A stretch of 64,000 nt of DNA, from contig JBBEBG010000016.1 in NCBI GenBank assembly GCA_040882465.1, forward strand, positions 62,001 through 126,000, read 5' to 3'. Below the pieces are notes generated by a model. It worked only from the letters and a program-made list of their open reading frames with translations. It made no database searches and was not told the DNA's origin. Position 1 is the first letter of the stretch. Every line of letters starts with the position of its first letter. The position numbers were made by a program, and so were the translations under genes. The DNA is from Gemmatimonadota bacterium (GTDB taxonomy: Bacteria > Gemmatimonadota > Gemmatimonadetes > Longimicrobiales > Gaopeijiaceae). Below are positions 44,797 through 51,458 of this stretch, in pieces.

Positions 44797-45363
44797 TCAG
44801 CGTCCAGGCGCGGACTCGAGGAATCCGCTGCTCTCCAGCCGCTGGGCGAAACGTCGAAGCTGCGCTCTGGTGCGGAGAGCCTCAAGATAGGCGGATGGCG
44901 TTAACGGATCGCGCAGCAGTGAGGTGCGATGGGCCTCAGCAGCCCGGAGCACGCCCTCCCGATCCACAGCCCAAAGCTGTTCGAGAAAACTCGGCGGACG
45001 TTTCCGCTCGAGACCGAACCCCATGAGAAGGCTTTCGGGGAAGTCCTTGGTGTTCCACGTCACGATCACGTCGGCCTCGTAATGGACCGCCAGCGCGAGC
45101 ACGTGCCGGTCTCCCTCATCAGGCAGCTGCACTACCGGTGCGGCATCGTCAAAGTCGAACCCACGGGCATCCGGGAAGGCCTGCTGCATCTGCGTCGCGA
45201 GATGCTCGAGCTGCTCTTCGCTCAGCCTTGTGTTGGCCCGCAGGTTCCGGTCGACCTCCTCCAAGATTGACTCCGACCACAGGGGCTGGTAAAGGCCCTC
45301 CGCCGCGAGCCACAGGAGGAGATTGCGCAGCTGAAAAGGATACAGAACGTTGGCGTCCAGCAC
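44797..45363 (-). CDS. PIN-domain ribonuclease (VapC-like toxin)
   Basis: About 188 residues. The PIN fold begins VLDANVLYP with the first catalytic Asp. A further acidic residue is in SILEEVDRNL, and LPDEGDRHVLALAVHYEADVIVTWNTKDF holds the remaining acidic pocket. The C-terminal 50 residues are helical. It follows an excisionase-like HTH gene, the pairing seen in VapBC50-type toxin-antitoxin modules. The start is uncertain: a GTG at 45363 fits homologues best, but the frame is open upstream to an ATG at 45423 that overlaps the antitoxin gene. Confidence 0.82.
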   Translation of the reverse strand: MLDANVLYPFQLRNLLLWLAAEGLYQPLWSESILEEVDRNLRANTRLSEEQLEHLATQMQQAFPDARGFDFDDAAPVVQLPDEGDRHVLALAVHYEADVIVTWNTKDFPESLLMGFGLERKRPPSFLEQLWAVDREGVLRAAEAHRTSLLRDPLTPSAYLEALRTRAQLRRFAQRLESSGFLESAPGR

Positions 45364-45379
45364 GGCGAGCAGGTTCAGC

Positions 45380-45841
45380 TCAGTACCCCTCGTCCATACT
45401 GGCCGTGGTCTTGGCCATCTCACCTAGCGCCGTAGTCCGTTCTCGTCCGGATACCGCTTCCCCACCGCGACTCATCGTTCGCTTGTATCTCTCCACCTCC
45501 GTTCGGAGGACACGGCGGTGCGTACCCACCATCCGATAGCTCATCTTCCCTCCTTCCAGAAGGTTGATGAGCGTGGGCCGGGACATCCCGAGTTCCGCAG
45601 CAGCTCGGGTGGTTGTGTATTCAGATCCTTCGCGAGAACCCTCGACAACCACCGCGTTTCCCTTCGCGAACTCCTCCAAGACCCTGTCCAGAGCTACGCG
45701 CGTTGCGGCGGACAGCTCCACCCCAGCCAGGCGAAGGGCTCCCCCAGGAGCCCGCTTTCTCGCGGCCTGCATGGCGTCCCGGATCTTTCGGGCAGCATCC
45801 ATGTCTTCCTTCGATGGTTCGATTCTGTGCTTGACAACCAC
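45380..45841 (-). CDS. Excisionase-like HTH antitoxin
   Basis: A 153-residue protein. The N-terminal half is helical (DMDAARKIRDAMQAARK and AATRVALDRVLEEFAKGN). The C-terminal half has a MerR/excisionase-type helix-turn-helix, EYTTTRAAAELGMSRPTLINLLEGGKMSYRMVGTHRRV, split here from a longer motif. It starts at a GTG with AAGGAGG upstream. In VapBC50-type modules such proteins both neutralise the PIN toxin and repress the operon; here they would also control the primase-helicase. Confidence 0.8.
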   Translation of the reverse strand: MVVKHRIEPSKEDMDAARKIRDAMQAARKRAPGGALRLAGVELSAATRVALDRVLEEFAKGNAVVVEGSREGSEYTTTRAAAELGMSRPTLINLLEGGKMSYRMVGTHRRVLRTEVERYKRTMSRGGEAVSGRERTTALGEMAKTTASMDEGY

Positions 45842-46105: not shown

Positions 46106-46179
46106 TGCGCCCGACAGGATTCGAACCTGTGACCTTCGGCTCCGGAGGCCGACGCTCTATCCATCTGAGCTACGAGCGC
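46106..46179 (-). tRNA. tRNA-Arg (anticodon CCG)
   Basis: The minus strand folds into a 74-base cloverleaf. The acceptor stem GCGCTCG pairs with CGGGCGC (one U-G pair), the discriminator base is A, the D arm contains AGCTCAGATGGATAGAGC, the anticodon loop CTCCGGA gives CCG, and the T arm contains GGTTCGAATCC. The CCA end is not encoded. The gene is intact despite the partial copies nearby. Confidence 0.95.
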
Positions 46180-46790: not shown

Positions 46791-48317
46791 ATGGACCGGT
46801 CCCTCCCCATCATCCGCGGTCGCGGCTCTGCCGACGATGTGCCGAACCGATTCGAGCGCCTCCACGTCGAATTCGAGCCGGAAGAGCAGGGAGATCCGCA
46901 CCGGCGTCGCACCGAATATCTGCGGGACACCTCCCGCTCCGCCCTCAATCGAAACAGCAGCCCGGACGTCGGCTTCGACTGGAGCCTCAATCCGTATCGG
47001 GGTTGCGAGCATGGGTGTGTGTACTGCGTTTCAGCTGAAACGCCGATCCTCCATGACGACGGCTCCTGGAGACCAATTGGAGGGGTTCTTGGGGGCGATT
47101 CCCTTGTGGGCTTCGATGAGCACCCCGGCGTCTCAGGACAGCCGAGAATGTTGCGGCGAGCCCGGGTCGAAGCTGTCCGATGGTCGAAAAAGCCAACGCT
47201 AAGACTCGTCACCCGGCGTACGGAAGTTGCGACGACGCACGAGCACCGATGGTTGGAACATGGAAGTGGAGCATGGTTCCGCACCGATGATCTGGCACCC
47301 GGTCGCATGCTGCACCACCTCACCTTGGATGACGGGAGCCTTCGCTTCGGGGAGCCCCCGCCCACGACACCCGAACCCATCCTCGCCATCGAGCCCGGTC
47401 CATTGACAGATGTCGTGGACATCCAAACCTCCACAGGGACCTTTTACGCCGCCGGGCTCGCGACCCACAACTGTTATGCCCGCCCCACTCACGAATACCT
47501 CGGCTTCTCCGCCGGCCTCGACTTCGAATCCCGCATCCTCGTAAAGGAAGAGGCTCCGGCGCTCCTCGAACGTGAGCTCGCCCGGCCCAAGTGGGTGCCG
47601 GTCCCGATCGTGATGAGCGGAGTCACCGACCCGTACCAGCCGATCGAGCGAAAGCTCGAGATCACGCGGAAGTGCATCGAGATCCTCGCGCGCACGCTTC
47701 ATCCCGTGGCCATCATCACGAAGAGCCGGCTCGTCGAACGCGACGCCGACCTCCTGGCCCGACTCGCAGAAGTCGGCGCCGCATGCGTGACGCTCTCCAT
47801 CACGACGCTCGACCGAAGGCTTCAGCGCGCCCTGGAACCACGCGCGTCCCCGCCCGAGCACCGCCTCGAAGCGATCCGAGCCCTTTCGGCGGCGGGAATC
47901 CCGGTTGCGGTGAACGTCGCCCCCATCATTCCGGGGCTCACGGACCATGAGATCCCGGAAATCCTCGGCGCGGCAGCCGAAGCGGGCGCCGTCGGGGCCG
48001 GTTACACCGTGCTCCGCCTCCCCGGAGCCGTCCGCCCGATCTTCCTCAAATGGATGGAAGAGCACATCCCCGACCGGGCTGGAAAAGTCCGCTCGCGTCT
48101 CCTGAGTCTCCGGGGCGGTGTCCTCTACAACTCCGAATTCGGAAAGAGAATGCGGGGCGAGGGACCCTTCGCAGAGCAAATCCGGACGATGTTCGATGTG
48201 GCGCGTCGGCGAGCCGGCCTCGACCGTCCATCGGTCGAGCTCTCGACCGCGCACTTCCGTAGGCCGGAAGCCCTGAGGATTCAGGGCCAAACCGACGAGC
48301 AGCTCTCCCTTCTCTAG
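46791..48317 (+). CDS. PA0069-family radical SAM protein containing a mini-intein
   Basis: A 508-codon precursor. The exteins (residues 1-78 and 228-508) join into a 359-residue protein of the PA0069/Rv2578c radical SAM family, recognised by [45 protein letters not shown] and [15 protein letters not shown]. The family resembles spore photoproduct lyase, but its reaction is not established. A 149-residue intein interrupts the protein just before the third Cys of the CxxxCxxC Fe-S/SAM motif. The precursor should therefore be inactive until spliced. The start has no clear Shine-Dalgarno sequence. Confidence 0.92.
   Translation: [508 protein letters not shown]
47025..47471 (+). other. Mini-intein (Hint domain, no homing endonuclease)
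   Basis: Codons 79-227. Block A starts with Cys ([15 protein letters not shown]). Block B has the TxxH motif (TTHEHRWL, Thr149 and His152). Block F is [17 protein letters not shown], and block G ends in His-Asn followed by Cys+1. These are all the residues needed for class 1 protein splicing. At 149 residues it lacks LAGLIDADG or HNH endonuclease blocks. In the precursor, intein Cys1 occupies the position of the third cluster Cys; after splicing extein Cys228 takes that place. Confidence 0.92.
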
Positions 48318-48390: not shown

Positions 48391-50328
48391 ATGTCTCCCG
48401 CCAGCGCCTCCGCGCGCCCTGCTGCCAGGCCGTCCGAAGCCGGGCAGACGATGATCTACCTCCGAGCGACGATCGTCGTCACGCTCGGCATGATCGGGGG
48501 CGCCCTCCTCGAGTGGGTACCCTCCGAGCCTTCGCCCTGGCGCTGGTTTCCCCTGGGGGTCGCCTACCTCGTGGGCGGAGCGCCCATCGTCCGCGACACG
48601 CTCCGGACGCTCCGCGAAGGAAAACTTTCGGTCGACTTCCTGATGGGAACGGCTGCGATCGGGGCGGCGGCGGTCGGACAGCCCCTCGAGGGGGCGATCC
48701 TGATCTTCCTCTTTTCTTTGTCCAATACGCTCGAAGCCTTCGCATTGGGGCGGACCCGCCGCGAGATCGAGGCGCTCATGGATCTCCATCCCGAGAACGC
48801 GACCCTCGTGGACGACGAGGGGCGGGAGATCGGCAAGGTCGCCGCGGCCGAATTGAAGCCGGGCCAGGCGATCCTCGTCCGTCCAGGGGAGCGCATCGCG
48901 TGCGATGGGAAAGTGCGCGACGGGAGGAGCGAGGTGGATCAGTCGGCGATCACGGGGGAATCCGTGCCGGTCTCCCGCTCCCAGGGAGACGAGGTCTTCG
49001 CCGGAACGATCAACGAAAGCGGGGTCCTCACCGTGGAGGTGACGCGCCTCGCGGGGCAAACGATGCTCGCGCGGATCGTGCGAATGGTGGCGGAGGCGCG
49101 GGAGGAGCGCGTGCCGGCGCAGGAGTTTATCGACCGCTTCGCGCATCCCTATACGATTTTCGTCCTCGTGGGGAGTGCGGCGACCGCCCTCGTCGCCTGG
49201 GGGATCTTCGACATGACGCCCGGCGACGCCGTTTACCGGGCGATGAGCTTCCTCGTCGTCGCGAGTCCATGCGCCCTCGTGATCTCGACACCGGCGGCCG
49301 TGCTCTCCGCGATCGCGAACGGCGCGCGCCACGGGATCCTCTTCAAGGGAGGAGGGATCCTCGACCGCGCGGGGACGCTGGATGCACTCGCATTCGACAA
49401 GACGGGGACGCTGACCGTGGGCGAGCCGCGCCTCCTTTCGATCGAAAGCGCCGATCTGGAGGACGGGAAGGTGCTTGAGCTCGCCGCGGCGATCGAAGCG
49501 GCGTCCGAACACCACCTGGCGCGAGCGGTTCTCCGCGCCGCCAGGGAAGCCGGCGTCAAGCCGGCCCGGGTCGAGGATTTTCGGGCCATTCCGGGCGAGG
49601 GAGTCGAAGGTCGGATCGGAGACCGGTGGGGATGGGTCGGGAATGACGGGATGGCCCGCCGCCGGTCGGCCGCCGTCCCGGAGCGGCTCGATCGTTGGCG
49701 CGGCGCACAGAGTGAGCTCGGTCGCTCGGTCGTCCTCCTTGGAGAGGGGAATCGCACGGTCGCCGCCATGGCATTCGGAGACGAGCTTCGCCCCGGCGCG
49801 AAGGAGACGATCCGCGTGCTGAAAGAAGAGTGCGGGATTCGTTGGATCACGATCCTCTCCGGCGACCACCCGCCCGCGGTGAAGGCGATCGCCGCGGACC
49901 TCGGCGCGGACGAGGTGCGCGCCGGGCTTCTCCCCGATCAGAAGGTCGAGGCCCTGCGCGAGCTGGCGAAGCGCTCTCGCGGGGTGGCGATGGTGGGAGA
50001 CGGAGTGAACGACGCCCCGGCGATGGCGGCAGCGTCCGTTGGAATCGCGATGGGCGCCGTGGGGACGGACGTCGCGATCGAGACGGCCGACGTCGTCCTC
50101 ATGAGCGATGAGCTCATGAAGGTCCCTTACCTGGTGAGGCTCGGGCAGCGGTCCCGCCGCGTCGTACGCCAGAACGTCTGGTTCAGCGTTGGATGGATGG
50201 GCTTCCTGGTGGTGACGGCCTCGACTGTGGGGATTCCCCTCCCGATCGCGGTGGTCGCGCACGAGGGGAGCACACTTCTCGTGGTGCTGAACGGGCTTCG
50301 GTTACTGCGGGGACGGTCGGGAGGCTAG
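48391..50328 (+). CDS. Heavy-metal P1B-type ATPase (Zn/Cd/Pb class)
   Basis: A 645-residue membrane pump. The actuator motif is TGES, the channel motif is SPC ([11 protein letters not shown]), the phosphorylation site is DKTGTLT and the hinge is GDGVNDAP. The last helices carry [19 protein letters not shown], typical of Zn/Cd exporters. There is no N-terminal CxxC metal-binding domain, so it is shorter than ZntA. The usual SEHPLA locus reads SEHHLA, with the HP-motif Pro replaced by His. The gene stands alone and ends 62 bases before the integron integrase. Confidence 0.88.
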
Positions 50329-50390
50329 CGTCGCGGGACGAGGCGGTTCGCGTCGCTCCATTCGGAGGCTTCGCTCACACCCCTTCAGAT

Positions 50391-51458
50391 ATGGTCCCGC
50401 CCTGCCGCCGAACGCATTTCTTACAGGATAAATGCGGCAAGCGCGTCACCCCCAGCTCCAAGCCTCCAGTGAGCCACGAGCCGGCCCCACCCGACTCCCC
50501 AGGCGCGCGCCTGCTCTCCCGCCTTCGATCGGAGCTCCGCGGTCGGCACTATAGTCGAAGAACGGAGCAGGCCTATGCGCTCTGGGTCCGGCGCTTCGTT
50601 CGCTTTCACAAAATGCGACACCCGTCCGAAATGGGAGAGGCCGAAGTCAACGCGTTTCTCACGCACCTCGCGGTGCGGAGGCGAGTCAGCGCCTCGACGC
50701 AGACCCAGGCGCTGAGCGCCCTTCTCTTTCTCTACAGAAGAGTTTTCGGCAGAAACCTCGGTGACCTTGGAACACTCTTGCGTGCGCGAAAGCCGAGGCG
50801 TCTGCCCTTGGTTTTGACGCGCGACGAGGTGCGCGAAGTATTGGGCAGGATGACCGGGGACACCGCGCTTGTGGGCGGCCTGCTCTATGGTTCCGGTCTC
50901 AGGCTCATGGAGTGCCTTCGGCTACGGGTACAGCACCTCGACTTCTCGCGCCGATCGATCCTGGTGCGCGACGGAAAGGGTTCCAAGGATCGCGCGACGA
51001 TGCTCCCCGGCGCGTTGGTCGATTCCCTCCGAGGCCAACTGGACCGAGTCCGAAAGCTTCATGCGCAGGACCTCGCGGACGGGTTCGGTCGCGTTTCGCT
51101 ACCGGATGCCCTCGCCCGAAAGTATCCGGCCGCCGCTCGCAATTTGGGGTGGCAATGGATCTTTCCCCAGAGGAACCGTTGGGTCAATCGGTCTACCGGC
51201 ACGCAAGGAAGGCACCATCTCGACCCGTCTATTCCCCAGCGCGCCGTCAAGGTGGCCGTGACGCAGGCGGGAATCGTCAAGCATGTGTCCTGTCACACCT
51301 TCCGGCACTCCTTCGCCACGCACCTCTTGGAGGACGGTCAGGACATCCGCACGATTCAGAAGCTCCTCGGACACGCCGACCTCAGGACCACGATGGTTTA
51401 CACACACGTATTGAATCACGGACCCGGGGGCGTCCGGAGCCCGCTCGATCGACTATGA
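50391..51458 (+). CDS. intI: Integron integrase (tyrosine recombinase)
   Basis: A 355-residue tyrosine recombinase from the ATG at 50391; a GTG at 50469 (329 residues) is also possible and closer to the usual IntI length. The N-terminal SAM-like domain has [21 protein letters not shown]. The catalytic residues are Arg171, Lys in GKGSKD, His302, Arg305, His328 and Tyr337 ([38 protein letters not shown]). The integron-specific insertion [21 protein letters not shown]...HHLDPS (about 240-280) is present, which separates IntI from XerC/D. It would recombine folded attC with attI. It reads towards the cassettes. Confidence 0.93.

Follow-up and report, generated by a model that had tools for sequence, protein, structure and literature searches.

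A class 1 mini-intein directly ahead of the third cluster-binding cysteine in a PA0069-family radical SAM protein from a Gemmatimonadota genome

In the stretch of Gemmatimonadota DNA that we have analysed (64,000 nucleotides, hereafter the window), the gene of a PA0069-family radical SAM protein carries a mini-intein of 149 amino acids, which is inserted exactly before the third cysteine of the CxxxCxxC motif that holds the iron-sulfur cluster. We consider it very likely (probability of about 0.9) that this insert is a class 1 mini-intein which excises itself by the standard route, and that it derives from an endonuclease-bearing ancestor whose endonuclease was lost later.

Results

Host gene and feature list

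The features on which the analysis is based are the following; the evidence for each is given in brackets.

46791..48317, forward strand: intein-containing PA0069-family radical SAM precursor, 508 aa plus stop (NF033668, PF04055)
46791..47024, forward strand: N-extein, residues 1-78, ending GCEHGCVY (gapless alignment to intein-less homologues)
47004..47006, forward strand: Cys72, first cluster ligand, position -7 (sequence)
47016..47018, forward strand: Cys76, second cluster ligand, extein position -3, candidate disulfide partner of intein Cys1 (MoaA-like spacing)
47025..47471, forward strand: class 1 mini-intein, 149 aa, precursor residues 79-227 (motifs, alignments, AlphaFold2 model, PDB matches)
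47025..47027, forward strand: intein Cys1, which is precursor Cys79, block A nucleophile (invariant in alignments A1, A2 and A6)
47235..47246, forward strand: block B TxxH, T71-H-E-H74 (H74 invariant in A1, A2 and A6)
47334..47372, forward strand: approximate place of the lost LAGLIDADG endonuclease, intein residues about 104-116 (gap against endonuclease-bearing inteins)
47418..47420, forward strand: block F Asp132 (invariant among the radical SAM-hosted inteins of A1)
47466..47471, forward strand: block G His148-Asn149 (invariant in alignments)
47472..48314, forward strand: C-extein, residues 228-508 (profile match, homologue alignments)
47472..47474, forward strand: Cys228, extein position +1, third cluster ligand after splicing (sequence)

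The precursor matches PF04055 in a profile search over the open reading frame 46791-48317 (forward strand), and belongs to the PA0069 family with an NF033668 score of 454.5 bits, above the curated cut-off of 360. The cluster motif is laid out as C72-x3-C76-x2-(C79...HN)-C228, and it is C72, C76 and C228 that make up the CxxxCxxC motif of the family after splicing. The host genome (3.53 Mb, 41 contigs) has a single PA0069 copy, and many Gemmatimonadota genomes have no PA0069 gene.

Immediately 3' of the radical SAM gene lies a gene for a heavy-metal P-type ATPase (48391-50328, forward strand; TIGR01525, 592 bits), and an integron integrase is encoded at 50193-51458 on the same strand (TIGR02249, 460 bits, cut-off 265); a loose attC-like pattern has four matches per strand in the window. 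At 44797-45423 and 45380-45841, both on the reverse strand, an overlapping gene pair was recognized by eye as a putative PIN-domain toxin and a DNA-binding antitoxin, and the sole tRNA found in the window is a tRNA-Arg (ccg) at 46106-46179 on the reverse strand.

Boundaries and splicing residues of the insert

An earlier note on this DNA had placed a mini-intein directly in front of the third Fe-S cysteine, and the boundaries bear this out. Positions 47025-47471 constitute 447 nt that are in frame and free of stops, the encoded 149 residues start with C1 and end with H148-N149, followed by a cysteine, and the insertion point lies exactly between two codons. Removal of the intein from the host sequence restores a 17-residue stretch with the C72/C76/C228 motif, an arrangement that is uninterrupted in 52 homologous loci (tblastn), which include the closest relatives (70-74% extein identity). 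The GC3 value of the intein, 0.66 as against 0.77-0.79 for the exteins, is as expected for a foreign insert.

The note had further stated that all splicing residues are present and that no endonuclease is left, and we found both to be the case. The residues of a class 1 intein are all there, i.e., C1, T71-H-E-H74, D132, H148-N149 and C+1; the C-terminal junction reads T-H148-N149/C+1, and C1, H74, H148 and N149 are invariant in an alignment with 25 inteins from viral contigs. Cys1 is the sole cysteine within the intein. Alignment to endonuclease-bearing inteins covers residues 1 to about 104 and about 116-149, the endonuclease being absent in between, and no LAGLIDADG segment was found in the 149-residue insert in these alignments. 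The insert is thus without a homing endonuclease domain and, by this definition, a mini-intein.

Fold and profile evidence

The AlphaFold2 model of the insert has a pLDDT of 96.7 and a pTM of 0.89, and both the model and its structural matches identify the Hint/intein fold. The best PDB matches are the Mtu RecA, Npu DnaB and Ssp DnaB inteins (VIA; Z about 20, rmsd 1.5-1.7 Å); 92 PDB chains are matched at Z >= 5 (Foldseek, VIA-align), and those listed are inteins, BILs and hedgehog Hint domains. A search of the PDB sequences with an intein profile also leads to inteins. A phmmer search of the PDB sequences with the intein alone yielded chance matches only, the Pfam intein families do not match the insert, and TIGR01445 gives it 17.1 bits, under the cut-off of 24.5. 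Across the host genome, the TIGR01445 signal, which is below the cut-off, is confined to this locus; L082, an endonuclease-bearing intein at the same codon of another genome, passes this model. The low generic-model score of the insert is a sensitivity limit of the models and not a defining trait. The agreement between motifs, codon-exact insertion, model and PDB matches goes beyond chance and confirms that the insert is a class 1 mini-intein.

In the AlphaFold2 model of the full precursor, which was made with an alignment (A7) containing three extein homologues, residues 70-78 have pLDDT values below 50 and residues 153-248 are also poor; we therefore make no geometric claim on whether Cys72, Cys76 and Cys79 meet.

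Inteins at the same codon in other Gemmatimonadota

A search of PA0069 homologues for inteins at this site, as had been suggested, returned three, all in other Gemmatimonadota genomes: L012 (350 aa, same order as the host of the window), L082 (346 aa, same family, other genus) and L053 (200 aa, same class). They share with the window's intein the host family, the codon and the CVYC/...HN/ junctions with the nine residues that follow, but differ from it in that they retain LAGLIDADG motifs and form a separate intein clade. L012 and L082 have two such motifs each and both match PF14528, whereas the shorter L053 has one motif and no PF14528 match. The loss of the endonuclease that the note had proposed is thus supported by relatives in the phylum, with intact inteins of 346-350 aa at this codon in two genomes and a partly deleted one of 200 aa in a third. 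The distribution of these inteins is sporadic: in the extein tree, the hosts that bear inteins (those of the window, L012 and L082) are interspersed with hosts that have none, a pattern typical of gain through homing and of loss.

Two archaeal plasmid sequences that match the L012 intein carry the annotation LAGLIDADG endonuclease. The Gemmatimonadota contain more inteins (L083, L084, L085, L086 and L054), whose hosts are, by sequence, RtcB-like, ThyX-like, ribonucleotide reductase-like and DNA polymerase I-like proteins; L054 apparently has two inteins within one protein.

NF038136 (intein-containing Rv2578c family radical SAM) describes a related protein whose intein is located at the same position, which means that the intein site at the third cluster cysteine is already known. 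The NF038136 intein corresponds to model positions 76-334, and every radical SAM intein tested aligns there from its first to its last residue; the insertion position is therefore the same. The scores against this model differ, being 193-231 bits for the L012, L082 and L053 inteins, 37.8 bits for that of the window and 61-69 bits for terminase inteins. Judged from these scores, the three same-site inteins belong to the NF038136 allele, and the window's intein does not specifically do so.

Lineage of the window's intein

The splicing domains of 73 inteins were used to build a tree (FastTree, 100 bootstraps). The window's intein groups with L072 and L089 (local support 0.978, 84/100 bootstraps), whereas L012, L053 and L082 form a clade of their own (99/100), and 0/100 bootstraps join the window's intein to them. 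L072, on the Streptomyces plasmid NZ_CP129127 (3121-4125), and L089, on an IMG/VR viral contig (2501-3517), are also the closest intein sequences, with 40-41% identity. Like the window's intein, they are positioned just before the last cysteine of the equivalent motif (GCDN/CYA or GCKN/CYM); unlike it, they reside in DUF5131 (PF07505) hosts and are full-length inteins of 335 and 339 aa with a LAGLIDADG endonuclease. The gene table of the Streptomyces plasmid lists no gene at the L072 intein. A search of viral contigs for relatives of PA0069 found none. Since the window's intein is kin to the DUF5131 inteins and not to its site-mates, inteins of at least two lineages have come to occupy this site.

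The DNA flanking the insertion point is alike across the families (GG-S-TG-Y....A-Y/TG-Y-TA-Y). Similar flanks would suit endonuclease-mediated homing from one family to another, a step that we infer. We found no paper on the recurrence of the third-cysteine intein site across radical SAM families in a literature that misses most subscription journals, and searches for inteins in connection with Rv2578c, CxxxCxxC or a radical SAM insertion site gave nothing on the present site.

Discussion

Probable self-splicing and origin of the mini-intein

The splicing of the window's intein is expected to be autocatalytic, and by default it would be fast and constitutive. Along the standard route, an acyl shift at Cys1, assisted by T71 and H74 of block B, would be followed by transfer to Cys228, by cyclization of Asn149 aided by H148, and by a final S-N shift. 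This would rejoin a 12-residue stretch in which Cys72, Cys76 and Cys228 could hold the cluster; before splicing, the radical SAM enzyme is presumably inactive. As to its origin, an endonuclease-bearing intein would have entered by homing, at the conserved codons that surround the third cluster cysteine, and would have lost its endonuclease at a later stage. The intact open frame, the endonuclease-bearing cousins and the same-site inteins of 350, 346 and 200 aa argue for this reading. It should be noted that, against it, the generic models stay under their cut-offs and the window's intein is known from a single genome, by sequence and model.

Could splicing be conditional?

The most serious alternative to constitutive splicing is a redox brake, in which oxidation would lock the precursor through a disulfide between Cys76 (-3) and Cys79 (1) and reduction would free splicing, so that an oxygen-sensitive enzyme matures when it can work. 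The redox idea for inteins is already known from the MoaA intein of Pyrococcus abyssi, for which two reviews (PMC3922620, PMC10663303) report a Cys-3/Cys1 disulfide that blocks splicing until it is reduced. The same spacing is found here with Cys76 and Cys79, and again in a radical SAM protein. In addition, the intein has no other cysteine, so the nearby partners of its Cys1 are Cys76, Cys72 and Cys228, and the model of the isolated intein superposes on the engineered redox-trap structure 3nzm (Z 17.5, 2.1 Å). However, the pair of cysteines is an automatic result of where the intein is inserted and does not show that regulation has been selected for, and the sporadic distribution of inteins at the site does not suggest a needed switch. 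We regard conditional splicing of this kind as possible but unlikely. By analogy with MoaA, the disulfide brake is the better-founded conditional idea when compared with cluster ligation, being plausible but unproven.

Ligation of a cluster was the idea of the earlier note, which had pointed out that Cys1 takes the place of the third ligand. As a description this stands, as the precursor keeps CEHGCVYC; as an independent clue it does not, and we have rejected it as a sign of regulation because any Cys1 intein inserted before a cysteine reproduces the ligand cysteine in this manner. Inteins require Cys, Ser or Thr at position +1, and the related terminase inteins likewise have Cys1 in hosts without a cluster. 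The idea would be that the CxxxCxxC of the precursor (Cys72, Cys76 and Cys79) binds iron or a cluster and thereby occupies the splicing nucleophile. The Hint fold places Cys1 within the splicing centre, which the cluster loop would need to open. The intact CEHGCVYC motif is in line with such competition, as is the known inhibition of inteins by Zn and Cu via active-site residues (PMC10663303), but we found no precedent for an intein Cys1 that ligates a cluster, and we consider this explanation very improbable.

Slightly less probable still is an insertion in decay, with little or no splicing, which would leave the radical SAM protein non-functional or replaced: the low generic intein HMM scores would fit it, and the host may survive without PA0069, given the sole copy and the absence of the gene from many genomes of the phylum, but the catalytic residues are all kept, the frame is open and the intein model is excellent.

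Recurrence of the site and comparison with known systems

The results to retain are that the site recurs in different radical SAM families and that two intein lineages have used it. A wider proposal would be that inteins recurrently settle at the codon preceding the third cluster cysteine of radical SAM enzymes, with two or more lineages involved and with hosts from three families at the least (PA0069, Rv2578c and DUF5131) and probably also MoaA. In this proposal, a Cys-3/Cys1 lock common to these inteins would keep the enzyme unspliced when conditions are oxidizing and would in this way help them to persist at the site; taken as a whole, we think this proposal is decidedly doubtful, more so than a redox brake in the window's intein. 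The pattern of kinship is nevertheless useful, as it separates two explanations of active-site inteins, conserved endonuclease targets versus regulatory benefit. The analysis also adds a compact natural mini-intein of 149 aa with one cysteine, and a series of sizes at one codon (350, 346, 200 and 149 aa).

Known systems can be compared with the one described here. The intein of P. abyssi MoaA, for which a native redox lock has been reported, resembles that of the window in having a radical SAM host, a cysteine at extein position -3 and Cys1, and an identical insertion site in MoaA may be assumed because the Cys-3/Cys1 spacing matches; it differs in that its host is an archaeal MoaA. NF038136 differs from the window's precursor in its host family, Rv2578c, and in its intein allele, and the precursor falls outside that family (288.3 bits against a curated cut-off of 700). 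The window's precursor has the same site and architecture as NF038136, but belongs to another family and carries an intein of another lineage. The new detail is that this lineage is shared with the DUF5131 inteins at the equivalent cysteine, and not with the inteins at its own site.
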